From the IMG/VR virus record IMGVR_UViG_3300045952_000124, positions 1 to 64,000 of that record: DNA of 64,000 nt; one strand, 5' to 3'. The DNA comes from a virus. The notes beneath the pieces were generated by a model that was given only the letters and a program-made list of their open reading frames with translations, did no database searches and was not told the origin of the DNA. Below, piece by piece: positions 5,261-63,861 of the stretch. How positions within the stretch are numbered: the first letter of the stretch is position 1; each line of letters starts with the position of its first letter. Made by a program: the position numbers and the translations under genes.

Positions 5261-5314
5261 CGCGTGAGATGACACAGGGCGCGTCAGGTGCGTTGCGGCA
5301 GTATAAACGCACCT
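5261..5314 (+). repeat. 3' element with GAGATGACAC and a following hairpin
   Basis: GAGATGACAC (5266-5275), followed by AGGGCGCGTCA, directly after the previous stop codon; the same string recurs at 51749, 55050, 60088 and 62532. Eleven bases later AGGTGCGTT (5286-5294) and AACGCACCT (5306-5314) form a perfect 9 bp stem with an 11-base loop. No U-run follows. Probable transcript 3' end or processing element. Confidence 0.6.
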
Positions 5315-5322
5315 GTGAGCGC

Positions 5323-5373
5323 TTGACAGCCGTCCTGCGGCGGCGGTATAATGTCGTAGTCGCGGAATACGAC
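5323..5373 (+). promoter_or_regulatory. Promoter with operator-like box (P1)
   Basis: TTGACA (5323-5328), 18-base spacer containing CCTGCGGCGG, TATAAT (5347-5352). The operator-like dyad GTCGTA (5353-5358)-N9-TACGAC (5368-5373) begins at the base after the -10, so it should cover the start site. The same box follows eight other promoters in the window. A small CCCG-CGA-CGGG hairpin (5375-5385) lies in the leader. Confidence 0.8.
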
Positions 5374-14338: not shown

Positions 14339-14363
14339 AGATGACACAGGAGCGCCGCCGCAG
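14339..14363 (+). repeat. AGATGACACAGGAGCGCC element
   Basis: A copy of the GAGATGACAC element (first G replaced by C) followed by AGGAGCGCC and a CCGCCGCAGG motif. Unlike the copy at 62523, the left stem arm is missing. It lies in the 113-base gap before the terminase small subunit gene. Confidence 0.5.
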
Positions 14364-25040: not shown

Positions 25041-25127
25041 CAGGGGCAACGGGCAACAGACAGGGCAAGTTGATTGACACACCACATCTAACAGCGCGCA
25101 GGAACAACAGCGCGGGAGGAACATACA

Positions 25128-25571
25128 ATGCCTACTGAATACTTTGGCATGGCAAGCGGCGCGAAGCAGGGGATGCACCTTGGCGACACGACCACGAAGC
25201 AGGCTCCGTCAGACCTGTCGGAGAGCGTCGTAATCGTGCAGGGGGAGCCGCTCCGCTTCGGACGTGAGGGCGCTTCGGGCGTCGGCGTAACGGTTGTGAA
25301 GTGCGAGGACGACGATGTGCCGGAGTGCATCGCTATTGAGCGCTGCGCTATCGCAAATCACCCGATTGGGGTGCGTCTTATTCCGAACGCGGTCGCAGCA
25401 AGCGCCAACGCAGCCGCCTTCATAGATGAGCTTGTGTATACCGGGGCGGTCCCTGCGGGCGACGATCTTGGTGTGCTTGCGAACGGCGCGGGCGCTTGGA
25501 AGATTGTCGCGGCGGGCGGCATCGGCAAGGTAATCTCTGCTGCGGGCGGGCTTGCGATAGTCCAGTTCTAA
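25128..25571 (+). CDS. Probable capsid decoration protein (DUF2190-like)
   Basis: 147 residues, GGGAGGAAC site. Small, strand-rich and Gly/Ala/Val-rich, with G-A-G-A-W-K-I-V-A-A-G-G-I-G-K-V-I-S-A-A-G-G-L-A-I-V at the end, a repeat-like pattern typical of capsid cement proteins. Position right after the capsid supports this. Confidence 0.6.
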   Translation: MPTEYFGMASGAKQGMHLGDTTTKQAPSDLSESVVIVQGEPLRFGREGASGVGVTVVKCEDDDVPECIAIERCAIANHPIGVRLIPNAVAASANAAAFIDELVYTGAVPAGDDLGVLANGAGAWKIVAAGGIGKVISAAGGLAIVQF

Positions 25572-47851: not shown

Positions 47852-47902
47852 TTGCGCTGCCTGCTGCCCCTTGCTATAATTGTCGTAGGTCGGACATACA
47901 AC
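47852..47902 (+). promoter_or_regulatory. Promoter with operator-like box (P3)
   Basis: TTGCGC (47852-47857), 17 bases, TATAAT (47875-47880), one base, then GTCGTA (47882-47887)-GGTCGGACA-TACAAC (47897-47902). The poor -35 together with the ATTGG sites suggests activator dependence. Confidence 0.75.
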
Positions 47903-51765: not shown

Positions 51766-51888
51766 GTCAGAATAGCCCTGCGTGTATGTTCGCCTGCGTG
51801 AACTACTGCAGGGCTTCTCTGTTGCCTGTCGTGCGCCGCCGCCGCCGCAGGCTCCGCGACCTGCGCCCGGCAGAGAGCCGGCCACGCG

Positions 51889-51921
51889 CCAATATTGGTG
51901 CGAATATTGGTAGCGGATTGG
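51889..51921 (+). promoter_or_regulatory. ATTGG-type sites upstream of P4
   Basis: CCAATATTGG palindrome (51889-51898), ATTGG at 51906 and 51917: steps of 12 and 11 bases, one helical turn each, ending 12 bases before the -35. Confidence 0.6.
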
Positions 51922-51933
51922 TCCCGAAACAGG

Positions 51934-51983
51934 TTGATACCCCACGCAGGACTTGCTATAATGTCTTAGGTAGGACATACGGC
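51934..51983 (+). promoter_or_regulatory. Promoter with operator-like box (P4)
   Basis: TTGATA (51934-51939), 17 bases, TATAAT (51957-51962), then GTCTTA-GGTAGGACA-TACGGC (51963-51983), the box with one change in each arm. Confidence 0.8.
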
Positions 51984-52000: not shown

Positions 52001-52015
52001 GGCGCGGATAGCGCC
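52001..52015 (+). promoter_or_regulatory. Leader hairpin, GGATA pentaloop
   Basis: GGCGC-GGATA-GCGCC, followed by GGAAGGG and the ATG 15 bases after the stem. Confidence 0.65.
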
Positions 52016-52030
52016 GGAAGGGACACGAAA

Positions 52031-52303
52031 ATGGATAAGCAGATTGAGGACGTAACGACGTTTGAGCAGATCGCGGACGGGCAGGTGTTGCATGAGGATT
52101 TAGGCGACTATGACGGGCGCTGGTGGCTTATGCTTGAGCCGATTGTGCGCTTGAACGGAGTGGTCTACTTCCGGTCGGCGGTCGTATCTGAGGACTGCGA
52201 AGCGTACTTGGACCTGCCGCATCTGAACACGAAAGAGAGCGCGGTCGCACTGGCCCCGCAGTACATCGCAGACTATGAGTGGAAGCACGGGCGACGCGGA
52301 TAA
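52031..52303 (+). CDS. Hypothetical protein, 90 aa
   Basis: First gene of the P4 transcript, AAGGG site. Acidic, mixed alpha/beta with GRWWLMLEPIVRLNGVVYF. No family recognised. Its leader (GCGCCGGAAGGGACACGAAAATG, in part) is nearly repeated before the next gene. Confidence 0.55.
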   Translation: MDKQIEDVTTFEQIADGQVLHEDLGDYDGRWWLMLEPIVRLNGVVYFRSAVVSEDCEAYLDLPHLNTKESAVALAPQYIADYEWKHGRRG

Positions 52304-52346
52304 GAAGTCAACAGGCTCCGCAGGTCGGAGCCGCGAGAACACAAGC

Positions 52347-52361
52347 GGCGCGAACAGCGCC
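52347..52361 (+). promoter_or_regulatory. Leader hairpin, GAACA pentaloop
   Basis: GGCGC-GAACA-GCGCC, followed by GGAAAGGG; ATG 16 bases after the stem. Confidence 0.65.
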
Positions 52362-52377
52362 GGAAAGGGACACGAAA

Positions 52378-52800
52378 ATGAGCGAGAAGTTTTACGGCAC
52401 GAACGGCACGATGTACACCGAAGTGGAGTGGGCAGGGCTTATGAAGCTAGCGAACGTTTTGGGCGGAGTTCTCGGAAGGATAACGGACGCCGCCGCCGCA
52501 GGCAGGTCGCACGACGCGCTTGACAGGCAGAGCATCGCCGCCCTGAACGCGATGCGCCGCTTGGAAGCTTCGGGCAAGGCACGCGCCGCCGAACACTCCT
52601 GCAACGCCTGCGTTGAGACGCCCGGCTGCTGGCGGCTAGACGGCAAGGAAGTAACCTGCGTGTGCTGCGACGGTCGCGGGTGGTACACACCGGAGCAGGA
52701 AGCGGAGCATCTGGATATGCTCCGCGAGATGCAGGCGGAGCGCACGGCGGAGCGCCGGAACGAAGAAGCGCTGTACAAGTACGAATTGCCTGCCGACTGA
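52378..52800 (+). CDS. Cys-rich (DnaJ-type CxxCxGxGW) protein
   Basis: 140 residues from ATG 52378. C-N-A-C ... C-V-C-C-D-G-R-G-W resembles half of a DnaJ zinc centre. N-terminal 60 residues helical; C-terminal acidic helix. ATTGG sites begin two bases after the stop. Confidence 0.58.
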   Translation: MSEKFYGTNGTMYTEVEWAGLMKLANVLGGVLGRITDAAAAGRSHDALDRQSIAALNAMRRLEASGKARAAEHSCNACVETPGCWRLDGKEVTCVCCDGRGWYTPEQEAEHLDMLREMQAERTAERRNEEALYKYELPAD

Positions 52801-52801
52801 T

Positions 52802-52817
52802 ATTGGTCGCAGATTGG
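52802..52817 (+). promoter_or_regulatory. ATTGG-type sites upstream of P5
   Basis: ATTGG at 52802 and 52813, 11 bases apart. Confidence 0.55.
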
Positions 52818-52840
52818 TCCTGCGGACCGGGCAGATCGGC

Positions 52841-52891
52841 TTGACGCCCCTCCGCAGGACTTGCTATAATGTCGTAGGTAGGACATACGAC
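52841..52891 (+). promoter_or_regulatory. Promoter with operator-like box (P5)
   Basis: TTGACG (52841-52846), 18 bases, TATAAT (52865-52870), then the full box GTCGTA-GGTAGGACA-TACGAC (52871-52891) in the same register as P1. Confidence 0.82.
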
Positions 52892-52913
52892 GGCGGCAAC
52901 GCAAGAACACACC

Positions 52914-52926
52914 GGGCGAACAGCCC
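52914..52926 (+). promoter_or_regulatory. Leader hairpin, GAACA pentaloop
   Basis: GGGC-GAACA-GCCC: the stem differs from its relatives by paired changes. AAAGG follows; ATG 15 bases after the stem. Confidence 0.65.
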
Positions 52927-52941
52927 TGAAAGGAAAAGACA

Positions 52942-53712
52942 ATGACGAACGAAATGAGCAGCGACATGAGGAAGCGACAGCAGGTGCGGAGCGGTGGCAA
53001 GTATGCGAAGTATGACGTAACGTGTGAGTTGTGCGGCAGGGGCATAAATGAGGACACTATGGAGACGCCGAACGGGTTGTACTTCGCGACCGATGAGTTG
53101 GGCTTTGTACCCTGCATCTGCGAGAAGTGCATCCCGGTGTTTGATTGGATGAAAGAGCCGGAAGCGGTCGCGTACCTGTTGAAGTACGGAGACGGCACGC
53201 AGAAGCCCGGCAAGAAGGCGGCGGATTGGGTGTTCGTCGCGGAGCCTGCGGTTGAGGCTCCTGCGGCGGCGGCTCCGGTTGAGGTTGAGGACATGCCTGC
53301 CCCTGAGAAGGGCGACACGTTTGAGTACAGGAACGCATACGCGGCGGCGCAGGCAGAGGCGCGGGCGCAGGTCGCAGCGATTGAGAAGCGCCGGGCGCAC
53401 ATGCTAGCCTGTGAGCGGCTTGTACACTTCGCCCGCGAAGCGGAGCAGGCAGCGCGAGACGCCGGGTTCTCTAACACAGCCGACGTGATGCACAAGGAAT
53501 ATGCGTTCGGCGTTACGATGCTGGCGAAGGCTATGGACGACCTGCACGCGCTAGGCGTGCCGATGAGCTTGATGTTAGACACGCAGGGGCTTGGCAAGGC
53601 TCCTGCGGCGGCTGCGCCCGGCTCCGGCTCCGCAGGTGCAGGTCGCGAGATGCCTGCAGGCTTCGGACCGATACGCACGATGAAGGTAGTTGAGCGAGAG
53701 GACGGCAGGTAG
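52942..53712 (+). CDS. Zinc-finger-like protein with coiled coil
   Basis: 256 residues, first gene after P5. C-E-L-C (28-31) and C-I-C-E-K-C (about 59-64) form a plausible zinc knuckle; a Pro/Ala linker precedes a long helix (EYRNAYAAAQAEARAQVAAIEK) and a Gly/Ala tail. Function unknown. Confidence 0.55.
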   Translation: MTNEMSSDMRKRQQVRSGGKYAKYDVTCELCGRGINEDTMETPNGLYFATDELGFVPCICEKCIPVFDWMKEPEAVAYLLKYGDGTQKPGKKAADWVFVAEPAVEAPAAAAPVEVEDMPAPEKGDTFEYRNAYAAAQAEARAQVAAIEKRRAHMLACERLVHFAREAEQAARDAGFSNTADVMHKEYAFGVTMLAKAMDDLHALGVPMSLMLDTQGLGKAPAAAAPGSGSAGAGREMPAGFGPIRTMKVVEREDGR

Positions 53713-53940
53713 ATGAGCTACAAGACTTTTGCGGAATTGTGCGCGGACCGCGACGGCGAGAAGTACGCCGAGAAGCCGCGCACGTTCCGGCGAGGGCAGG
53801 CGGTCCGGTACGGCACGCTGCAGGGTAAGGTCCGCAGGTTGACCGGGCGCATGTTGACGATAGACTTGGACGGCGGAGCCGGGCGGATACAGGCAAGGAT
53901 AAGCGACTGCGTAGCGGTCGGAGAGGACGGCACAGCATGA
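53713..53940 (+). CDS. Small SH3-like barrel protein
   Basis: 75 residues, ATG directly after the previous stop. The second half alternates Gly and hydrophobics (G-Q-A-V-R-Y-G-T-L-Q-G-K-V-R-R-L) as in KOW/SH3-type small barrels. Inferred fold only. Confidence 0.5.
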   Translation: MSYKTFAELCADRDGEKYAEKPRTFRRGQAVRYGTLQGKVRRLTGRMLTIDLDGGAGRIQARISDCVAVGEDGTA

Positions 53941-54236
53941 AGGCATTTACTGAGCAGCAGAAGCAACTAGCGTTTGAGCTGGTCAAGACGGAGAGCGCCC
54001 GCAACGTCGCAGGCAACAAGGCGCGCAAGCGCCCGGCGCAGGACGCGGAATGGCACAGCCTGCACGGGTCGGTCGCACGGCTTCTGGACACAGAGGAAGC
54101 TTTGGAGAAGCGCCTGTTGGACCTGCTGCGGCAGGACGGCGCAGGAGCCTCCGCGAATTACTACCTGAGCGAGTTGAAGATGATCGGGCGCGACCGGATG
54201 CGGCGTGAGGGTTCGCCCTACGTTTGGGCGAAGTAG
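53937..54236 (+). CDS. Hypothetical helical protein, 99 aa
   Basis: ATGA overlap with the previous gene. Highly charged helices (basic 25-35, acidic 45-65). No recognised family. Confidence 0.5.
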   Translation: MKAFTEQQKQLAFELVKTESARNVAGNKARKRPAQDAEWHSLHGSVARLLDTEEALEKRLLDLLRQDGAGASANYYLSELKMIGRDRMRREGSPYVWAK

Positions 54237-54253
54237 TCTCCCGGCACAGTATT

Positions 54254-54266
54254 GCGCGAACAGCGC
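54254..54266 (+). promoter_or_regulatory. Leader hairpin, GAACA pentaloop
   Basis: GCGC-GAACA-GCGC, then GGAAAGGA; ATG 17 bases after the stem. Confidence 0.65.
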
Positions 54267-54283
54267 GGAAAGGACGGCACACG

Positions 54284-54886
54284 ATGAGGGACGAAGGCAT
54301 GCACACACACTTGGCAGTAACAGTCAGGGCGGGCGCGGAGTTGACCGACGTAAAGACCGGGGCGCGGCTCCGGCTTGCGGAGCCGATTGAGACGGCAGTG
54401 ATAGCAGTAACGGCTACGACCTGCTTCGCCTATGACAGCCGCATATACGCAGTCTCGGCGGAGTACGTGACGATAGACGGCATATGGAGCGGAGCCTTTG
54501 CGCGGGCGGCGGCGGAGCGGCACGCGGCAGGCATGGACCGGATCGGCTTGAAGACGGCACGATACCCGGCTCCGCAAGGGGAGCCTCTGCAGGCTCCGAC
54601 CTGCCCGGCATGCGGAGCGGCGCTTGACCCCTCTGTGCGGCACACCTGCGGCGGCACGTTGGCGGAGTTGGAAGCCCTGCAGCATGAACACATGGCAGGA
54701 CAGGTCCGGGTCCGGGCAAGGGCGAACGCCGTCGCGGAGCGCATCGCAGAGGGCAGGGCGGCGGGCGTTGAGCCGACGATCTGCAAGTCATGCAAGGCGG
54801 AGTGTCCTGCCGGGGCGACGATGTGTTGGTGCTGCCGCAACTGGACGGACGGCATGATCCGGGGCATGACGAACGATAGCGACTGA
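54284..54886 (+). CDS. Double zinc-ribbon protein
   Basis: 200 residues from ATG 54284, the start that fits the leader hairpin. C-P-A-C-G ... H-T-C-G-G (about 107-125) and C-K-S-C ... C-W-C-C (about 168-185) give two metal sites separated by an Arg-rich helix. Stop overlaps the next start. Confidence 0.58.
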   Translation: MRDEGMHTHLAVTVRAGAELTDVKTGARLRLAEPIETAVIAVTATTCFAYDSRIYAVSAEYVTIDGIWSGAFARAAAERHAAGMDRIGLKTARYPAPQGEPLQAPTCPACGAALDPSVRHTCGGTLAELEALQHEHMAGQVRVRARANAVAERIAEGRAAGVEPTICKSCKAECPAGATMCWCCRNWTDGMIRGMTNDSD

Positions 54887-55008
54887 TGCGATTGCGAACC
54901 TTCCTGCGGCTTGCCGGAGTAGCGTTGGTGCTGCTCCGCTTGCCGTTTCTTTGGTTCTTCTGCGGCTTCGCGGGTGGCCTGTTATTCGCCCTTTTGCTGC
55001 TGCAATAG
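54886..55008 (+). CDS. Very small hydrophobic membrane protein
   Basis: 40 residues, ATG overlapping the previous TGA by one base. Three Arg at the N terminus, then almost entirely hydrophobic to the stop (RLAGVALVLLRLPFLWFF, GGLLFALLLLQ): one or two membrane helices. Its stop falls within the left edge of repeat copy D. Confidence 0.55.
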   Translation: MRLRTFLRLAGVALVLLRLPFLWFFCGFAGGLLFALLLLQ

Positions 55009-55147
55009 CGCTCCGCAGAGCCGCCGCAGGACACGCCCTGAGACGCGCTGAGATGACACAGGACGCATCAATACCCCTCTGTGGCTATGTATGCAGCCGT
55101 GCCGCTATTCTGACGATTTTGTGCGTGATTTTAGAACGTGGTTGCTA
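55005..55147 (+). repeat. Interspersed noncoding element, copy D
   Basis: CGCTCCGCAGAGCCGCCGCAGG as in copy A, then GACGCGCTGAGATGACACAGG (in pieces; the GAGATGACAC sequence at 55050-55059), CATCAATACC, CTATTCTGACGATTT-TGTGCGTG-ATTTTAGAAC and GTGGTTGCTAC, the last shared with copy B. Opens the gene-free stretch 55009-55331, which also holds ATTGG sites and P6. Confidence 0.8.
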
Positions 55148-55206
55148 CATCTGCTCCGCTCCTGCGGACCTGCAGCAGCGACGCCGCCCGGCTCCGGCAG
55201 GCGCAA

Positions 55207-55233
55207 ATTGGGCGTAGATTGGCGGCAGATTGG
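55207..55233 (+). promoter_or_regulatory. Three ATTGG sites upstream of P6
   Basis: ATTGG at 55207, 55218 and 55229: two exact 11-base steps, 13 bases before the -35. The most regular of the five arrays. Confidence 0.65.
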
Positions 55234-55245
55234 GCGCGGAGCGGC

Positions 55246-55297
55246 TTGACCCTGCTCCGCCGACCATGCTATAATTGTCGTAGGTCGGACATACAAC
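55246..55297 (+). promoter_or_regulatory. Promoter with operator-like box (P6)
   Basis: TTGACC (55246-55251), 18 bases, TATAAT (55270-55275), one base, GTCGTA-GGTCGGACA-TACAAC (55277-55297), identical to the P3 box. Confidence 0.8.
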
Positions 55298-55302
55298 ACA
55301 CG

Positions 55303-55315
55303 GCGCGGATAGCGC
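55303..55315 (+). promoter_or_regulatory. Leader hairpin, GGATA pentaloop
   Basis: GCGC-GGATA-GCGC, then AGAAGGAG; ATG 16 bases after the stem. Confidence 0.65.
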
Positions 55316-55331
55316 AGAAGGAGCAAACGGG

Positions 55332-55871
55332 ATGGACAGTCCTGAGCGGACAATCGAATTGACGAACGGCAAGCAGGTCGCTATTGACCCTGCGGATTAC
55401 GACTTGGTATCGGGGCTGCGCTGGTACGAAGTGCGCGGGTATGCTGCGGCGAGAGTACGGGGCGGCGGAGTAGTGCTGATGCACGTCTACATAATGACGG
55501 GCGGCGACTACAATGGGGCGCGGCAAGAGTCGGTCGTAGATCACAAGGACGGCGACAGGCTCCGCAATACCCGCGACAATCTGCGTTGGGCGACATACAG
55601 GCAGAACGGCTACAACAAAGGCAAGGCGTCCGGCAAGTCTAGCGCGTACAAGGGCGTGAGCAAGTGTTCGGACCGCGACAGGTGGCTTGCCTGCGTACAC
55701 GTCGGCAATAAGAGCATAACGCTTGGGCGCTTCGCTACTGAGCTAGAAGCGGCGGCGGCGTACAATGAGGCGGCTTGCGCCCTGTTCGGCAAGTGGGCGC
55801 GGTTGAACAACCTGCGGGCGTCGGAGCCGTGCTTGGTTCCCGCAGATGAGATTGACGACCTGCCGTACTAA
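55332..55871 (+). CDS. HNH endonuclease with AP2 DNA-binding domain
   Basis: 179 residues. V-V-D-H-K-D-G-D-x-L-x-N-T-R-D-N-L-R-W-A-T (68-90) is the HNH core; residues about 105-160 are an AP2 domain (Y-K-G-V-S, R-W-x-A, L-G-R-F, E-A-A-A-A-Y-N-E-A-A). This is the homing-endonuclease architecture found free-standing in phages. It has its own promoter, ATTGG sites and leader hairpin, so it is regulated like its neighbours rather than being a silent insertion. Confidence 0.88.
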   Translation: MDSPERTIELTNGKQVAIDPADYDLVSGLRWYEVRGYAAARVRGGGVVLMHVYIMTGGDYNGARQESVVDHKDGDRLRNTRDNLRWATYRQNGYNKGKASGKSSAYKGVSKCSDRDRWLACVHVGNKSITLGRFATELEAAAAYNEAACALFGKWARLNNLRASEPCLVPADEIDDLPY

Positions 55872-55890
55872 TCGGGCGGCAGGCTTGAAC

Positions 55891-55903
55891 GTGCGAACAG
55901 CAC
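55891..55903 (+). promoter_or_regulatory. Leader hairpin, GAACA pentaloop
   Basis: GTGC-GAACA-GCAC: another stem variant with compensated bases. AAGGAGG follows directly; ATG 14 bases after the stem. Confidence 0.65.
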
Positions 55904-55917
55904 AAGGAGGCTATACA

Positions 55918-56241
55918 ATGGCTACAATACCCGGACTGGCCCTATTGGACACGTTCTGCGAAGCGGCGATGAAAGCCTGCGTCCTGCAGGCGCGGAGCCG
56001 CAACTTGGAGGTAGACGCGGAGTTGGTGATCGGTCCTCTGCGCGTGCAGACTGCGGAGCAGTACAATAACCTGTTGGCGGACGTGAAGCACGCCGCCGCC
56101 GCAGGCGGAGTAAGCGTTGAGCGCGCTTTGGAGATGCTGCCGGGCGACATGCTCCGCGACCTGACTAACAGTCGCGCTAACGTGGCGGGCGTGCAGGCTT
56201 TGATAGCGGCGGGCTACATTCCCGCCGAAGGAGGACAGTAG
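55918..56241 (+). CDS. Hypothetical protein, 107 aa
   Basis: ATG 55918 with AAGGAGG. Helical, Leu/Ala rich, two Cys (ATFCEAAMKACVLQ region), with AAAAGG encoded by a motif copy. No recognised family. Two bases separate its stop from the next ATG. Confidence 0.55.
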   Translation: MATIPGLALLDTFCEAAMKACVLQARSRNLEVDAELVIGPLRVQTAEQYNNLLADVKHAAAAGGVSVERALEMLPGDMLRDLTNSRANVAGVQALIAAGYIPAEGGQ

Positions 56242-56243
56242 AC

Positions 56244-56720
56244 ATGGCGGCAAAGAAGGCTTGGGGCGACGCGATTGCCCCGGACAGTGGGCAGGCGGCT
56301 ATGGGGCTGCAGTCGGAGTTGACGATACCGCAGAAGGTCGTAATTGACAACGCGCTTGCGCTTCTGAAAGAGCCAAGCAACTTCTGCAAGGGACGCCCGG
56401 CAGTTGACATACACGGGCGGCGCGTCTCTCCGACCGACCGCGAAGCCGTGCGTTGGGACATTCTAGGAGCGCTCCGCAGGGCAGCAACTATGCCGCCCGG
56501 CGCGACCGAGAACGACTTGAAGGCGGTTGAGGCTGTGCTGTACGAGAAGATACGGGCGAATGAGGCGTACGCGAAGTGGGACCTGCTAGGTTTGAACGAC
56601 CACAGGGGTTACTACTTCGTCGTGTCTCTCCTGCAGGCGGTCCGCGACGGCTCCGCGTGGCAAGTGCCGGATACCGCGCAGGACCGCCGCAACGCCCGGA
56701 AGAAGGCGGCAGCGAAATGA
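56244..56720 (+). CDS. Hypothetical protein, 158 aa
   Basis: Helical with a basic end (RRNARKKAAAK). The segment VDIHGRRVSPTDREAVRWDILGALRRAA recalls small phage or bacterial proteins of unknown role seen near restriction or regulatory genes; no firm family. ATGA overlap with the next gene. Confidence 0.5.
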   Translation: MAAKKAWGDAIAPDSGQAAMGLQSELTIPQKVVIDNALALLKEPSNFCKGRPAVDIHGRRVSPTDREAVRWDILGALRRAATMPPGATENDLKAVEAVLYEKIRANEAYAKWDLLGLNDHRGYYFVVSLLQAVRDGSAWQVPDTAQDRRNARKKAAAK

Positions 56721-57118
56721 GGACAGGGGCGATACCCGCGCAGGACTACGAAGGGGAGCAGGATTGGCAATCCGTTCTCCCGCGACCGGGCTTCTGCCGG
56801 GTAAAAGAGGCGTTTCTGTGGAGTACCGCTAAATCGCTGTTTGTGCCGTGGCATGCGTTCGGCTTCGTTTGGGAGTTGCGGCTTGAATGCGGGCGCGTGC
56901 ATGATACGTATCGTCCGCGCTACGTGCCGGAGCGCGAGAGCAAGCACCGGAGCGTCGCCCACATACGCGCCGCAGGTGACGTGCTGCCGCCGCCAGCGCA
57001 GGTGAAATGCTCCTGCGGATTGAACCCGGACTATGGACGCTGCAAAGGCTGCGGTCGCAAGCTAAAGAACCCGTACTACTGCGACGGCTGCGGGCGGAAA
57101 AAGGACCCGGCGAAGTAG
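56717..57118 (+). CDS. Zinc-ribbon protein
   Basis: 133 residues. The C terminus C-S-C-G ... C-K-G-C-G-R-K ... C-D-G-C-G-R-K has six cysteines in three CxC/CxxC pairs with basic residues between, a nucleic-acid-type zinc ribbon. The N-terminal half is Trp/Phe-rich. Confidence 0.58.
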   Translation: MRTGAIPAQDYEGEQDWQSVLPRPGFCRVKEAFLWSTAKSLFVPWHAFGFVWELRLECGRVHDTYRPRYVPERESKHRSVAHIRAAGDVLPPPAQVKCSCGLNPDYGRCKGCGRKLKNPYYCDGCGRKKDPAK

Positions 57119-57119
57119 C

Positions 57120-57168
57120 TTGACACACCTGCGGCGGCGGCGTATACTTCGCAGGTCGGACACACGAC
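57120..57168 (+). promoter_or_regulatory. Promoter with variant operator box (P7)
   Basis: TTGACA (57120-57125), 17 bases containing ACCTGCGGCGG, TATACT (57143-57148), then TCGCA-GGTCGGACA-CACGAC (57149-57168). The whole region is nearly duplicated at P9. No ATTGG sites. Confidence 0.75.
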
Positions 57169-57200
57169 ACACGACACGGACAGGAAGGGGGGTGATAGGC

Positions 57201-57374
57201 ATGAAGGAACGGGCGATGTACTGGCTTCGGCAGGCGGCATGGGCTGCGATATGCGTCTCGGCTGCGTTGCTGGTGCTGTTCGGTTTAGCGCGCCTGATGT
57301 ACATCGGCTTGCCTGTGGCGGCGGATTGGCTCCGGGCGTTCTGCATAGTGCAGGACGGATGCCCCGGACACTAG
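57201..57374 (+). CDS. Small membrane protein
   Basis: 57 residues from ATG 57201 (GAAGGGGGG site). One transmembrane segment (about 14-35, AWAAICVSAALLVLFGLARL) and two Cys near the C terminus. First gene after P7; role unknown. Confidence 0.58.
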   Translation: MKERAMYWLRQAAWAAICVSAALLVLFGLARLMYIGLPVAADWLRAFCIVQDGCPGH

Positions 57375-57437
57375 CGGAAAGATGCGTCCTAGTGGCTCTC
57401 AGGAGCCGGGGCGCGGAGCGAATTGGAGGCAATACAC

Positions 57438-57665
57438 ATGGCTAGATACGTGCCTATAACAGAAGCGGAGCGCATGCGGCGTGCGTCGGAGTTGATAACA
57501 GAGACGACGAACGCTTACGAGAGGTTTATGCTCCTGTCCACAGATGAGGCGTTGAACGCTAGCAAGCGGGCGGACATGTTGATAGAAGCGCGGAAGTGCT
57601 TGGAGCTTCTAGGCAAGCTTACGGGCGCGCTTCCGGTCGCGCCGACCGCAGAGGAGTACAACTAA
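57438..57665 (+). CDS. Hypothetical helical protein, 75 aa
   Basis: ATG 57438, GGAGG site. Nearly all helix (AERMRRASELITETTNAYERF). TAATG overlap with the next start. Confidence 0.55.
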   Translation: MARYVPITEAERMRRASELITETTNAYERFMLLSTDEALNASKRADMLIEARKCLELLGKLTGALPVAPTAEEYN

Positions 57666-58618
57666 TGAGCGGCATTGGAGCGATACCCGTCAAGCGCGGC
57701 TGCGGCACGCGGCAGGCGGGCGGAGTGTATTGGGAGTTGGGTATAGGTCCGGGCGGCGCGCCTGCAGAGGCGTTTCTGGTAGACGCTCCGCAGCTTCTAC
57801 CGGAAGGGTACGTGCTACCAAACCGGGGCGTCGGCATACTGGAGCGGGGCGCAGTAACGCACTTGGTAGACCGGATCGGGCTGTCGGATTACCCTAACAC
57901 GCTGGACTACTTTTTGGAGGGCAAGGAGTACGGCTACAGCCGCCGTCTCCCGGCGACGCTTGACTACAGCGTGCTAGGAGAAGCGTCGCGGCTCCTGCCC
58001 GTGCATGACCGCGCGTTCCTGCACAACTATGCGGACCTGTGCGCGGCGAACGTGACGCTGCCCTCTGTAATCTGCCCGAAGGGGTTGCCGCACCACCCGC
58101 TATGGTGCGCTATCGGCAGGGCGGAGCAGGTCGGTTGGCAGGAGTACGGAATAGAATTGGAGCCGCCGCAGGAGTTGAGGTCGTTCGGCACGATTGAGCG
58201 GGTCGGAGTAATCCTGCCGACGCAGCGCGTGAACCCTTTGTACGTGCGTGAGGACGCGCTTGCGGCGTCGGCACGCGGAGAGGCGTACGAACACTACCAC
58301 ATCGAAGTCGTGCCGCCTGAACCGATGTGCTGCTCCGCTTGGTGGAGCCTGCTTGACCCGGACACCTGCGAACCTGCGCCGCAGGTACACGGTTGGGGCG
58401 ACGGCTACAGCAAGCGGAAAATGCCGTCGTTTGAATACAACGCCTACAAGGTTCCGGGCGACTTCTCTCCGAAGTACGCCCCGGCGATATTTATGAGCCT
58501 GCCTGCTTCGCGGATCGTAATCGTCCGCGACGAAGACGACCCGCAGTACGCGGAGAAGGCGGAGCGCATAGACCGCATGCTTGACGGGCGGCTACACTTT
58601 ACGGAGGTAGATCAGTGA
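57665..58618 (+). CDS. Hypothetical protein, 317 aa
   Basis: Alpha/beta protein with several Cys (GCGTRQAGG, CAANVTLPSVICPKG, MCCSAW), a Trp-rich stretch and an HHPLW motif. The regular strand pattern suggests a single folded domain, but I do not recognise it. It overlaps the ParB-like gene by 4 bases and may act with it. Confidence 0.55.
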   Translation: MSGIGAIPVKRGCGTRQAGGVYWELGIGPGGAPAEAFLVDAPQLLPEGYVLPNRGVGILERGAVTHLVDRIGLSDYPNTLDYFLEGKEYGYSRRLPATLDYSVLGEASRLLPVHDRAFLHNYADLCAANVTLPSVICPKGLPHHPLWCAIGRAEQVGWQEYGIELEPPQELRSFGTIERVGVILPTQRVNPLYVREDALAASARGEAYEHYHIEVVPPEPMCCSAWWSLLDPDTCEPAPQVHGWGDGYSKRKMPSFEYNAYKVPGDFSPKYAPAIFMSLPASRIVIVRDEDDPQYAEKAERIDRMLDGRLHFTEVDQ

Positions 58619-60114
58619 GTGACAATCGGACGAACACGAACAGGAAGCAGGGTGAGGGGCAGGCTGCACAATCGGCGCTAGACCTGTCTCTCCTGCCGGG
58701 CAAGATGCCCGAACACATAGCGAACGCGAACATACCGCTCAACGTGCTGCCGCCCGATGCGGAGTTGATAGGACCGGAGCCGACGCCGGGCTTGATGCAG
58801 AGCCTTCGCGACTTCGGCGGCGTGCTTGTGCCGCTCCTGCTGATAGCGGAAGGGCAGCTACAGGGACCAACCGGATACATCGTAGTGGACGGCACGCGGC
58901 GCGTGAAGGGTATGCGGCGCTGGCAGCGCGAATGGGCAGAGGAAGCGGAGCGCATAGAAGCGAAGCACGGGCAGGTAGACGTTGACGCCGGAGAGGTCGC
59001 GGACTTCCGGGCGTCGCGCCCGCCCCAAACTGTTCCGGCGCGCATATTCCCGCCGGGTTGGAGCCGGGCAGAGGTGCTATCGGTCGTAGCGAATGAGGAG
59101 CGGTCGGAGAACCTGCCCCGGACGCTTGACAACCTGCGGCGGCTCCTGCAGGCAGGGGTTGACCCGGAAGAAGTGCGGCGCTCCTGCGGGCTTGACAAGA
59201 CGCAGTACAAACAGGTCGCGCAGTTGCTAGCCTTGAACGCGGTACTCCTGCAGGCGTTGATAGACGGCAAGCTTCCGGCAGGGCGGGCGCGTGAGATAGC
59301 GAGAATGCCCGTCGCCCGGCAGGATAAGCTTGCGGCGATGTACGAAGCAGAGGGCAAGCTATCGGCAGAGGACGTGCGAGAAGTGCGGTCGGTTGGATCT
59401 GCGGCGGCGGCGGCGCTAATCCCTGACGACGTGTTCAACACGCCCGGCGCTGATGCGTCGGCTCCGGCATGGGGCGCTATGGGGTTCACTCCGGGCGCTG
59501 TGTTGACGGCGCAGGGCATGGCGACAATCGTAGCCGTACCTGCCGGGCAGGAGCCTTCAATACCCTACGTGTACAGGGAAGTAGACACCGAACACTGGCT
59601 TGCGAAGGTCAACAGGCTTATAGCGGAAGCGCTTGACGCGACGCCTGCCGATGCTCCGCACGCGCACCAGCTAATCGCATCGCTTGCGCGGTCGGCAGAG
59701 GAAGCGGACTTCCTGCTGACGCTGTACGCGCACGGTGAGCCTAGCGGTCCTACTCCGCATGAGCAGCTAATGTCTGAGCTTGCGGCGGCGGAAGCGGAAG
59801 ACCTGCGGCGGCAGTCGGAGCAGGAGCCGGAGCGGAAGAAGAAGCCCAAGAAGGAACGGCGGGCGCTATCGTCCGAGACGTACGACAACATCCCGGCTGA
59901 TAGCCCGTTCTCTACGTCCGCCGATCCGACTACGCTCCCAACAGAAGTCGCGGAGCAGGTCGGCGTTGAAGACCTGCAGGTTGACGACTTCGCGTCGCTG
60001 GCGAAGGGCGTGCAGTCGGAGCGGGTCGCGCCCGCCGAACCTGTATGGAGGCGAAAGAAGCCTGCAGAGGCGGCAGGAGTAGCCCCTGAGATGACACAGG
60101 GCGCGTCAGAATAG
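58615..60114 (+). CDS. ParB/KorB-like DNA-binding protein
   Basis: 499 residues. ParB-type N domain: L-N-V-L-P-P-D, L-R-D-F-G-x-V-L-V-P-L-L, I-V-V-D-G-T-R-R-V-K-G-M-R-R-W (about 96-110), then V-A-N-E-E-R-S-E-N-L and a helix-turn-helix (A-G-V-D-P-E-E-V-R-R-S-C-G-L-D-K-T-Q-Y-K-Q-V) followed by L-P-A-G-R-A-R-E-I-A-R-M. A partition or transcription-control role is plausible; it is a candidate binder of one of the repeated sites described here. The C-terminal EMTQGASE is encoded by the GAGATGACAC repeat. Confidence 0.75.
   Translation: MSDNRTNTNRKQGEGQAAQSALDLSLLPGKMPEHIANANIPLNVLPPDAELIGPEPTPGLMQSLRDFGGVLVPLLLIAEGQLQGPTGYIVVDGTRRVKGMRRWQREWAEEAERIEAKHGQVDVDAGEVADFRASRPPQTVPARIFPPGWSRAEVLSVVANEERSENLPRTLDNLRRLLQAGVDPEEVRRSCGLDKTQYKQVAQLLALNAVLLQALIDGKLPAGRAREIARMPVARQDKLAAMYEAEGKLSAEDVREVRSVGSAAAAALIPDDVFNTPGADASAPAWGAMGFTPGAVLTAQGMATIVAVPAGQEPSIPYVYREVDTEHWLAKVNRLIAEALDATPADAPHAHQLIASLARSAEEADFLLTLYAHGEPSGPTPHEQLMSELAAAEAEDLRRQSEQEPERKKKPKKERRALSSETYDNIPADSPFSTSADPTTLPTEVAEQVGVEDLQVDDFASLAKGVQSERVAPAEPVWRRKKPAEAAGVAPEMTQGASE
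60082..60101 (+). repeat. GAGATGACAC hairpin inside a gene end
   Basis: CCCT-GAGATGACAC-AGGG (60084-60101) overlaps the last codons of the ParB-like gene, followed by CGCGTCAGAATAG as in the copy at 51742. Confidence 0.6.
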
Positions 60115-60138
60115 GTCGGCGCGTATGTTTGTATGCGT

Positions 60139-60168
60139 GAGGGGCGGGCGGCTGTCTGAGCGCCCCTC
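60139..60168 (+). terminator. Hairpin after the ParB-like gene
   Basis: GAGGGGCG (60139-60146) pairs with CGCCCCTC (60161-60168), 14-base loop. No U-run. Lies between the stop at 60114 and the next ATG at 60194. Confidence 0.5.
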
Positions 60169-60193
60169 AACAACACGAAAGGACGAAACACGA

Positions 60194-61021
60194 ATGGACG
60201 GCATAAGCGAACACTTTGGCGATGTAGACATGGACGAAGCAACGGATAACGGCTATCAGGGCGGCTCCGCCCGGAATTACGGCGATTGGTCGGCGCACGA
60301 CCTGCTAGCCCGGTCGGTTGAGCTGCAGGAGCAGCAGGTCGCGCAGTTGGCGCGGTCGGCGGCGGCTCAGGAGCGGATCGCGATACAGGAGACGCGCAAG
60401 AGCAACTATCTCGGCGGGATACTCCTGCTCCTGCACTCTGCGGCGGCGGCGCATCTGGACCCGATAGTAACCGACCGCATACCGTTCGGCTTTGACGACT
60501 ATGAGGAGCCGGGCGACGGTCCGGGCGGAGCCGGAGCAGGTGCAGGGGCAGCAGCCGCCGCAGGGCGGGAAGGACCGCAGGCTTCGGTGTCAATCGGGGC
60601 GCGCATCAACGAAGACGGCACAATGACGCCGATAGCTTGCCCGCACAACCCACTTGGACCGGAAGCTTGCGCGCTCTGCGCGGCAGCGTTTGAGGCTATG
60701 GCCCCGATGATGCAGGACGCGGCGGCGGACCTGCGGGCGCGGGCTGCTTCGGCAACGCAGGCGTACCAAGAGTACGTCGCAAGCGTCGGACCGGGGCAAC
60801 CGCTAATGACCCTGCAGGAATGGAACCGCCAAAACGCGGCGGCGTCTCCGGCTCCGCGCCGGGCAGGTGGCAGACCGCCGATCACTCCGACCGAAGCCGG
60901 GTGGCTATCCGACCTGTACGCGCAGGGACCCAAGCAGGCGCAGGAAGCGCACGACCGCCGCATGGCAGCGAAGCAGGACGAACACGCCGAGACACAGGAG
61001 CCTTTGCCGCCGCAGGCATAA
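60194..61021 (+). CDS. Hypothetical coiled-coil protein
   Basis: 275 residues from ATG 60194 (AAAGGACG). Acidic N terminus, a Gln/Ala coiled coil (VELQEQQVAQLARSAAAQER), a Gly/Ala linker, C-P-H ... C-A-L-C metal-site candidate and a basic Pro-rich tail ending LPPQA encoded by a motif copy. Confidence 0.5.
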   Translation: MDGISEHFGDVDMDEATDNGYQGGSARNYGDWSAHDLLARSVELQEQQVAQLARSAAAQERIAIQETRKSNYLGGILLLLHSAAAAHLDPIVTDRIPFGFDDYEEPGDGPGGAGAGAGAAAAAGREGPQASVSIGARINEDGTMTPIACPHNPLGPEACALCAAAFEAMAPMMQDAAADLRARAASATQAYQEYVASVGPGQPLMTLQEWNRQNAAASPAPRRAGGRPPITPTEAGWLSDLYAQGPKQAQEAHDRRMAAKQDEHAETQEPLPPQA

Positions 61022-61037
61022 ATTGGTAGCGGATTGG
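61022..61037 (+). promoter_or_regulatory. ATTGG-type sites upstream of P8
   Basis: ATTGG at 61022 and 61033, 11 bases apart, immediately after the previous stop codon. Confidence 0.55.
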
Positions 61038-61049
61038 CGGCGGAGCGGC

Positions 61050-61099
61050 TTGACGGCGGCTCCGCCTGCCGCTATAATGTCTGTAGTAGGACATACGAC
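61050..61099 (+). promoter_or_regulatory. Promoter with operator-like box (P8)
   Basis: TTGACG (61050-61055), 17 bases, TATAAT (61073-61078), then GTCTGT-AGTAGGACA-TACGAC (61079-61099); the left arm is degenerate, the right part intact. Confidence 0.75.
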
Positions 61100-61115
61100 G
61101 CGGGCATTGACCCGC
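61100..61115 (+). promoter_or_regulatory. Leader hairpin, hexaloop variant
   Basis: GCGGG-CATTGA-CCCGC, 22 bases before the next ATG, in the same place as the pentaloop hairpins but with a different loop. Confidence 0.5.
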
Positions 61116-61137
61116 TACACAGAAAGGTAGGTCGGAC

Positions 61138-61527
61138 ATGACGAACATAGGCAAGCTTGAAGGCGACACGTTTGGGAGCAGGCGCAGGCAGGCGGAAGAA
61201 AGCCGCTCCGCTACGTCTGCCTTCGCGCAGAAGCAACGCGACCGGGCGCAGGCTGTGCTTGACGGGTACACGCCGGAGCAGGTCGAGAAGCATCGGCGGT
61301 TGGGGCAGGTGCGTGAGGACGCGGCGCAGTTGGGGCAGGCGGCGTTCGTCCTGCAGAAGCGCGGCAAGGAGCGGCTTGGGCTGCAGGTCCGCCGCGAACA
61401 CCTGTTGGCGCTTGCGGAGCGCGACGCGCTGCAAGAGGAATTGGAGCGCACGACGGGCGGCGTGTGGGGCGTGCAGGCGTTGGGCGACGCGATACTCCGG
61501 TATGACCGGATTATGATCGAAGGGTAA
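61138..61527 (+). CDS. Hypothetical coiled-coil protein, 129 aa
   Basis: AAAGGTAGG site. Nearly all charged helix, Gln/Arg/Glu rich (FAQKQRDRAQAVLDGY, LLALAERDALQEELER). First gene after P8. Role unknown. Confidence 0.55.
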   Translation: MTNIGKLEGDTFGSRRRQAEESRSATSAFAQKQRDRAQAVLDGYTPEQVEKHRRLGQVREDAAQLGQAAFVLQKRGKERLGLQVRREHLLALAERDALQEELERTTGGVWGVQALGDAILRYDRIMIEG

Positions 61528-61549
61528 TCGGCGGCAGGTCGGATTGATT

Positions 61550-61562
61550 GCGCGAACAGCGC
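61550..61562 (+). promoter_or_regulatory. Leader hairpin, GAACA pentaloop
   Basis: GCGC-GAACA-GCGC, then AGAAAGG; ATG 18 bases after the stem. Confidence 0.65.
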
Positions 61563-61580
61563 AGAAAGGCAGGCAATACA

Positions 61581-62522: not shown

Positions 62523-62550
62523 GGCGCTCCTGAGATGACACAGGAGCGCC
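62523..62550 (+). terminator. 3' hairpin with GAGATGACAC loop (perfect 9 bp stem)
   Basis: GGCGCTCCT (62523-62531) pairs exactly with AGGAGCGCC (62542-62550) around GAGATGACAC. It begins 10 bases after the stop codon. The best-formed copy of this element; no U-run follows. Confidence 0.65.
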
Positions 62551-63786: not shown

Positions 63787-63810
63787 CCTGCGGCTCCGCT
63801 ACTCCGCAGG
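63787..63810 (+). terminator. Hairpin before P9
   Basis: CCTGCGG (63787-63793) pairs with CCGCAGG (63804-63810), 10-base loop, followed at once by the -35 TTGACA. Probable end of the preceding transcript. Confidence 0.5.
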
Positions 63811-63811
63811 C

Positions 63812-63861
63812 TTGACACACCTGCGGCGGCGGCGGTATACTTCGCAGGTAGGACACACGAC
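63812..63861 (+). promoter_or_regulatory. Promoter with variant operator box (P9)
   Basis: TTGACA (63812-63817), 18 bases containing ACCTGCGGCGG, TATACT (63836-63841), then TCGCA-GGTAGGACA-CACGAC (63842-63861). Nearly identical to P7 including the CACACGACAC leader. Confidence 0.75.

Follow-up and report, generated by a model that had tools for sequence, protein, structure and literature searches.

Seven ribosome-site hairpins with a constrained pentaloop are candidate RNA operators in a tailed phage

In Cluster K mycobacteriophages (PMC3203893) and Cluster EF Microbacterium phages (PMC7302621), start-associated repeats (SAS/ESAS) occur in many copies per genome, at the translation starts of some but not all genes. 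In addition, the Cluster EG Microbacterium phages carry an 18-bp inverted repeat located 14-22 bp before starts (PMC7302621) and Cluster O a 17-bp palindrome (PMC4351075). The function of the start-associated repeats was left open in the Cluster K and EF/EG papers (PMC3203893, PMC7302621), and little support for RNA pairing in the ESAS repeats was reported by their authors (PMC3203893). At the RNA level, the gp43 protein of T4/RB69 represses translation next to the ribosome site through a hairpin with a conserved loop, and T4 RegA is a translational repressor of about 30 mRNAs (PMC3014915). Here we describe seven short hairpins located just upstream of the Shine-Dalgarno (SD) sequences of seven genes in the window, i.e. 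64,000 bases of the 65,530-base IMG/VR record IMGVR_UViG_3300045952_000124, which comes from a tailed phage.

The initial annotation had placed seven stem-loop-stem units 14-18 bases before an ATG, with a loop that is always GAACA or GGATA. All seven are present, with stem, loop and stem as claimed, in the same orientation and only on the plus strand. Hairpin 1 (52001..52015, GGCGC-GGATA-GCGCC) precedes gene 52031 (90 amino acids) and hairpin 2 (52346..52362, CGGCGC-GAACA-GCGCCG) precedes gene 52378, which codes for a cysteine-rich, Zn-ribbon-like protein of 140 amino acids; the GGCGC/GCGCC stem of the latter starts at 52347 and is extended by a C-G pair at 52346. Hairpin 3 (52914..52926, GGGC-GAACA-GCCC) is located before gene 52942 (256 amino acids) and hairpin 4 (54252..54268, TTGCGC-GAACA-GCGCGG) before gene 54284 (200 amino acids, cysteine-rich), with a GCGC/GCGC core from 54254 and two outer U-G pairs. 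Hairpin 5 (55303..55315, GCGC-GGATA-GCGC) precedes the HNH-AP2 homing-endonuclease-like gene 55332, hairpin 6 (55891..55903, GTGC-GAACA-GCAC) gene 55918 (107 amino acids), and hairpin 7 (61548..61564, TTGCGC-GAACA-GCGCAG), whose GCGC/GCGC core from 61550 is flanked by outer U-A and U-G pairs, gene 61581 (310 amino acids). The core common to all is GC-[GAACA or GGATA]-GC in a stem of 4-6 bp, with GAACA in five sites and GGATA in two. At each of the seven sites the SD begins 0-3 nucleotides 3' of the stem, and the end of the core stem lies 14-18 nucleotides from the ATG.

A covariance model built from the seven sites (R1) recovered them at 34-43 bits (39.5, 40.2, 40.3, 41.6, 33.9, 34.8 and 43.3 bits for hairpins 1 to 7). 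The next match, at 25091-25130 (21.1 bits, E value 4.5e-5), corresponds to a possible degenerate eighth copy on the plus strand, CGCGC-AGGAACAACA-GCGCG (25095..25115), with a 10-nucleotide loop that contains GAACA. It stands before gene 25128 in the structural block, and its membership in the set is uncertain from the sequence. The seven copies are all located within 52.0-61.6 kb, outside that block. The final 1.5 kb of the record, beyond the window, was also scanned with R1 and contained no additional hairpin.

The nearest precedents are the start-associated motifs of actinobacteriophages. As in the SAS/ESAS, a motif recurs near the starts of some of the non-structural genes, here in seven copies. 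The SAS is, however, a 13-bp sequence at the position of the ribosome-binding site itself, whereas the element described here is an RNA hairpin upstream of an ordinary SD. The SAS consensus, GGGATAGGAGCCC or GGGAAAGGACCCC, was matched in the window with at least three mismatches, and the best match was not at a hairpin site. The Cluster EG repeat GATCAACCNNGGTTGATC (Hyperion, Squash, OneinaGillian) is placed before starts in a similar manner, but it is a near-perfect, fixed DNA palindrome with a 2-bp centre, while here the stems vary and an asymmetric loop is fixed; this repeat was not found in the window (at least four mismatches). None of the start-associated sequences of Clusters K, EF, EG and O occurs in the window. 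The class of start-associated motifs is thus already known; judged by sequence, the present element would stand apart in forming a hairpin whose loop is fixed and whose stems are in part compensated. Compared with the T4-type systems, the gp43 operator serves a single autoregulated gene and has a different loop, and RegA reads AU-rich sites that lack structure and either overlap the AUG or lie immediately ahead of it. What the hairpins share with RegA is that one RNA site recurs where ribosomes bind on different mRNAs, in this case those of seven unrelated genes.

The set exceeds what would be expected by chance. A scan of the window for a 5-nucleotide loop closed by a stem of at least 4 bp, with an SD within 4 nucleotides and a start codon next, returned 41 pentaloop cases on the plus strand, and the loop was GNRNA in seven, which are exactly these sites; each of the other loops was seen once, at most twice. 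Dinucleotide-preserving shuffling of the 33 nucleotides that precede the SD in 76 genes (2,000 trials) yielded 0.97 GNRNA hairpins on average and never more than 6, compared with 8 observed, seven of them the present sites. No more than three shuffled hairpins shared one loop, against five for GAACA. The outside control, 341 locus-strands of phage and bacterial DNA from elsewhere (1.6 Mb, or 3.1 Mb with both strands counted), contained no locus in which more than two such hairpins shared a loop. No GNRA tetraloop hairpin was present at any called gene start, where stability alone might predict otherwise; the single case in the window scan was inside a coding sequence.

Across IMG/VR, GAACA followed by SD and ATG was flanked by pairing of at least 4 bp in 1 of 120 cases, which is the chance level, and the arrangement is therefore not a general phage signal. 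The string GCGAACAGC followed by SD and ATG gave 26 matches in IMG/VR, five of them with at least 4 bp, about 3.7 being expected from a simple pairing estimate. A minus-strand hairpin on an unrelated 17.5-kb viral contig (L006, also L161; G003:16582-16618) shares 22 identical nucleotides, TTGCGCGAACAGCGCAGAAAGG, with the window and precedes a 202-amino-acid gene followed by a capsid-like gene. It is single-copy there and no relatives were found; the hairpin of L178 is likewise single-copy. Matches to GCGCGAACAGCGCNGAAAGG in bacterial genomes were set aside, their flanks being by eye unlike the SD-start arrangement of the window; in one of them (L153) an ATG lies 4 nucleotides downstream.

We then considered how stem and loop vary between copies. 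Counting the five core pairs from the loop, pairs 1, 2 and 4 are invariant, pair 3 is C-G in five sites, with one G-C site and one U-A site giving two compensated changes, and pair 5 is formed in only four of the seven sites. The covariation score was reached by 4 of 500 column shuffles, a type of score that related sequences inflate. Relatedness is indeed present: the ribosome sites 52001-52033 and 52346-52380 (genes 52031 and 52378) are near-duplicates sharing 34 nucleotides at 91% identity, and those of genes 54284 and 61581 share flanking sequence over 23 nucleotides, so that there are about five independent units rather than seven. The description of the stems as covarying was thus right for pair 3 and overstated for the stem as a whole. 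Covariation had also been taken as strong evidence for a protein-bound hairpin; a conserved RNA hairpin at translation starts is supported, and binding by a protein is plausible only.

The loop is stronger evidence than the stem. Differences between GAACA and GGATA are confined to loop positions 2 and 4, the two that a GNR(N)A fold leaves free, and G1, A3 and A5 are invariant. The same two positions, and no others in the loop, distinguish the near-duplicate sites of 52031 and 52378. Both loops would presumably adopt the GNR(N)A fold. GNRA-like pentaloops with one base looped out are structures read by proteins, P22 N-boxB being among them, and a CRISPR (clustered regularly interspaced short palindromic repeat) RNA with an n4-n5 insertion and pentaloop topology is also protein-recognised (PMC12550061). 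The occurrence of GGATA and GAACA in such similar sites might represent two binding specificities.

The proteins encoded downstream of the hairpins are unrelated to one another and mostly ORFans, and the hairpins are therefore not by-products of gene duplication. The product of gene 55332 gave HNH_3 and AP2 matches; the remaining ones gave weak matches or none, at least two being cysteine-rich by inspection. Between 52.0 and 56.0 kb, a hairpin is present at all six starts preceded by 46 or more untranslated nucleotides and is missing from the abutting or overlapping starts 53713 and 53937, as well as from 56244 just beyond 56.0 kb. To the right of 56.0 kb, only one of several untranslated gaps contains a hairpin. 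Three hairpins are located 20-36 nucleotides past the predicted transcription start of sigma-70-like promoters, and the other four are inside operons, approximately 375 to 1,375 nucleotides from the nearest upstream promoter. The promoters, all on the plus strand, have their -10 elements at 51957..51962 (TTGATA and TATAAT, hairpin 1 in the leader), 52865..52870 (TTGACG and TATAAT, hairpin 3) and 55270..55275 (TTGACC and TATAAT, hairpin 5). A fourth -10 element, at 61073..61078, belongs to the promoter of the operon with the internal hairpin 7, about 460 nucleotides downstream.

In predicted ensembles, the hairpins formed with high probability at the six sites computed; 52378 was left out of this calculation, its hairpin being seen in separate folds. 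The predicted probability that the SD is unpaired averaged 0.69 at hairpin genes versus 0.54 at other genes (p = 0.06). Occlusion of the SD by the hairpin was ruled out by this prediction, in which the SD stays open, and the hairpin would therefore not repress on its own. When the left arm was broken in silico, SD accessibility decreased from 0.63 to 0.32 at 54284, from 0.95 to 0.77 at 52942 and from 0.40 to 0.27 at 55918, and the effect was small or reversed at 52031, 55332 and 61581.

A position at the upstream edge of the ribosome footprint, a fixed loop, a single orientation and a distribution over many unrelated genes are together best read as the site of a trans-acting factor. The single orientation and the sites far from promoters fit an RNA element and not a DNA element, and a post-transcriptional role is likely. 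We favour the reading that the seven hairpins are RNA operators of a translational or mRNA regulon, probably bound by a phage protein, and regard it as about evenly poised between right and wrong. The narrower version, a phage-wide regulon in which one phage RNA-binding protein reads the GNR(N)A-pentaloop hairpin on at least seven mRNAs, the hairpin acting as RNA, is more tentative and falls somewhat short of that. A single cis-acting operator would have been copied into the untranslated gap that precedes the SD in non-structural genes with translation initiation of their own. The mRNA would fold there into the 4-6 bp stem capped by the pentaloop, on the upstream border of the 30S footprint, and a trans-acting RNA-binding protein, most likely encoded by the phage, would read the loop together with the C-G/G-C closing pairs and so co-regulate the mRNAs that bear the hairpin. 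Bound protein would compete with 30S binding and thereby repress the gene set at a given stage; this effect is preferred because T4 RegA and gp43 act so at comparable sites. Stabilisation and protection of the mRNA, or activation, may instead follow from binding and would look alike in sequence. An RNA element is indicated by the constrained loop, by the shared orientation and by a few compensated changes in the stems, which makes the function accessible to simple reporters. If a phage protein does read the hairpin, it would provide a compact translational control module and possibly an orthogonal RNA-protein pair.

Several observations weigh against an operator read by a phage protein. Longer folds of the leaders do not exceed shuffled sequences in stability; covariation, although genuine, is sparse, being confined to one core pair; and the copies may share ancestry through duplication of a cassette. 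Pfam, PHROGs and PADLOC scans, covering most of the non-structural proteins, recognised no RNA-binding regulator. Conservation between genomes is supported by no relative, no close one having been found in the collections searched. The 53713 protein was tried as a KOW/Sm-like binder and rejected, its best PDB sequence match, LSm4, not being significant (E value 0.16).

The main rival, which we consider rather unlikely, is a factor-independent structural cassette that spread by local duplication as a ribosome-site unit with no specific binder, and that would shield the SD from upstream pairing, stop read-through by post-termination ribosomes or protect the 5' end from decay. The two pairs of sites sharing a hairpin plus SD or spacer would fit such a spread, as would the restriction of hairpins in 52.0-56.0 kb to starts with an untranslated gap and the accessibility lost on stem breakage at 54284, 52942 and 55918. 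The three sites where this effect was small or reversed speak against it, and stability fails to explain why G1, A3, A5 and the inner GC/GC are invariant while the outer pairs drift. The initial annotation had drawn from the ribosome-site position either a translational operator or an mRNA end-processing site; we favour the former and retain the latter as a minor, improbable rival. Here a Cas6f-like nuclease would read the hairpin and cut 3' of the stem, leaving an mRNA 5' end at the SD, in agreement with the SD lying 0-3 nucleotides past every stem, with the four sites between genes inside operons and with the CRISPR RNA known to have the same n4-n5 looped-out pentaloop topology (PMC12550061). 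The protein scans recognised no Cas6-like or other nuclease candidate, however, permissive Rfam thresholds brought up no CRISPR repeat in the region either, and the three hairpins close to a predicted transcription start would gain little from processing.

A DNA-level element, either a palindromic protein-binding site as proposed for ESAS or a stoperator, is still less probable. The stems are inverted repeats, the Cluster K authors favour DNA-binding sites for their start-associated inverted repeats (PMC3203893) and Cluster EG has start-associated palindromes (PMC7302621), but the fixed asymmetric loop, the identical orientation in 7/7 and the outer U-G pairs are not what such an element predicts, and the distance is fixed to the SD and ATG, not to promoters. 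For lambda-type nut/boxB antitermination sites, the resemblance in size to boxB that was noted at the outset is one of shape only. boxB acts in antitermination with boxA in the leader RNA. The stem length here is presumably similar to that of boxB, and we take the lambda-type GNR(N)A pattern to fit both loops. GAACA and GGATA do conform to it by sequence, and boxB of lambda and P22 has likewise a short stem and a GNRA-like pentaloop with one base looped out, among other related pentaloops (PMC12550061). No boxA was detected within 60 nucleotides upstream, at least four of nine positions being mismatched at every site, there are several copies per operon, each hairpin abuts the SD, and no N-like arginine-rich antiterminator was recognised in the protein scans, N proteins being strongly divergent. 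The absence of boxA, the four sites deep in operons and the open SD argue against antitermination, a DNA operator and intrinsic occlusion, and we find nut sites scarcely credible. RNA anti-CRISPRs, solitary repeat-like hairpins mimicking host CRISPR repeats, are the least credible explanation. The loop presumably resembles the pentaloop of type I-F repeats, but no CRISPR-DR family was matched in Rfam up to an E value of 10, every copy is at a ribosome site, and the stems vary between copies where a mimic of a single host repeat should keep them constant. The Rfam scan as a whole gave nothing at gathering thresholds and only chance matches below them.

In the window, nearly all genes are carried by the plus strand. 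TerL (phrog_675), portal (phrog_3753) and major head protein (phrog_3922) genes are found at 16.8-25 kb, and the non-structural block begins at about 50 kb and continues rightward. The nearest known relatives are very remote: TerL has about 23-25% identity to proteins of Vibrio, Thermus and SPO1-like phages, and capsid and portal have 27-31% identity to those of Enterococcus phage fHoEfm07. Megablast of 45-64 kb of the window against phages gave no close relative. Tblastn with the ParB-like protein, TerL, capsid, portal, 20598 protein and PAPS reductase either found nothing or reached about 31% identity at best. In IMG/VR, the 61581 protein, TerL, capsid and the portal alignment were used as queries and gave no close relative, the portal alignment producing a single match at 22%, and a search for the promoter-plus-start pattern had 0 matches.

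Other repeated elements are present in the window. A palindrome, GTCGTA-N9-TACGAC, imperfect in some copies, directly follows TATAAT and spans the predicted transcription start at 51963-51983, 52871-52891, 55277-55297, 47882-47902, 61079-61099 and 5353-5373, the last with its arms kept and a different centre; it is probably a transcription operator. Upstream of four of these promoters (about 51888-51922, 52802-52820, 55207-55234 and 61018-61035) there are ATTGG boxes in twos or threes, in most cases spaced by about 11 bp, which may be sites for an activator or a repressor. A 25-bp repeat of the promoter region, GCTTGACACACCTGCGGCGGCGGCG, with a TATACT -10 element, is found in identical copies at 57118-57142 and 63810-63834 and represents a promoter class without hairpin leaders. 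Finally, the element CTGAGATGACACAGG is present at or after gene ends at 5268, 14340, 51751, 55052, 60090 and 62534, with AGATGACACAGG invariant in the six copies. It forms a 10-bp hairpin at 62534, the stem being weak at 5268 and 55052 and lost at 14340, and its sequence, rather than the hairpin, seems to be what is kept.

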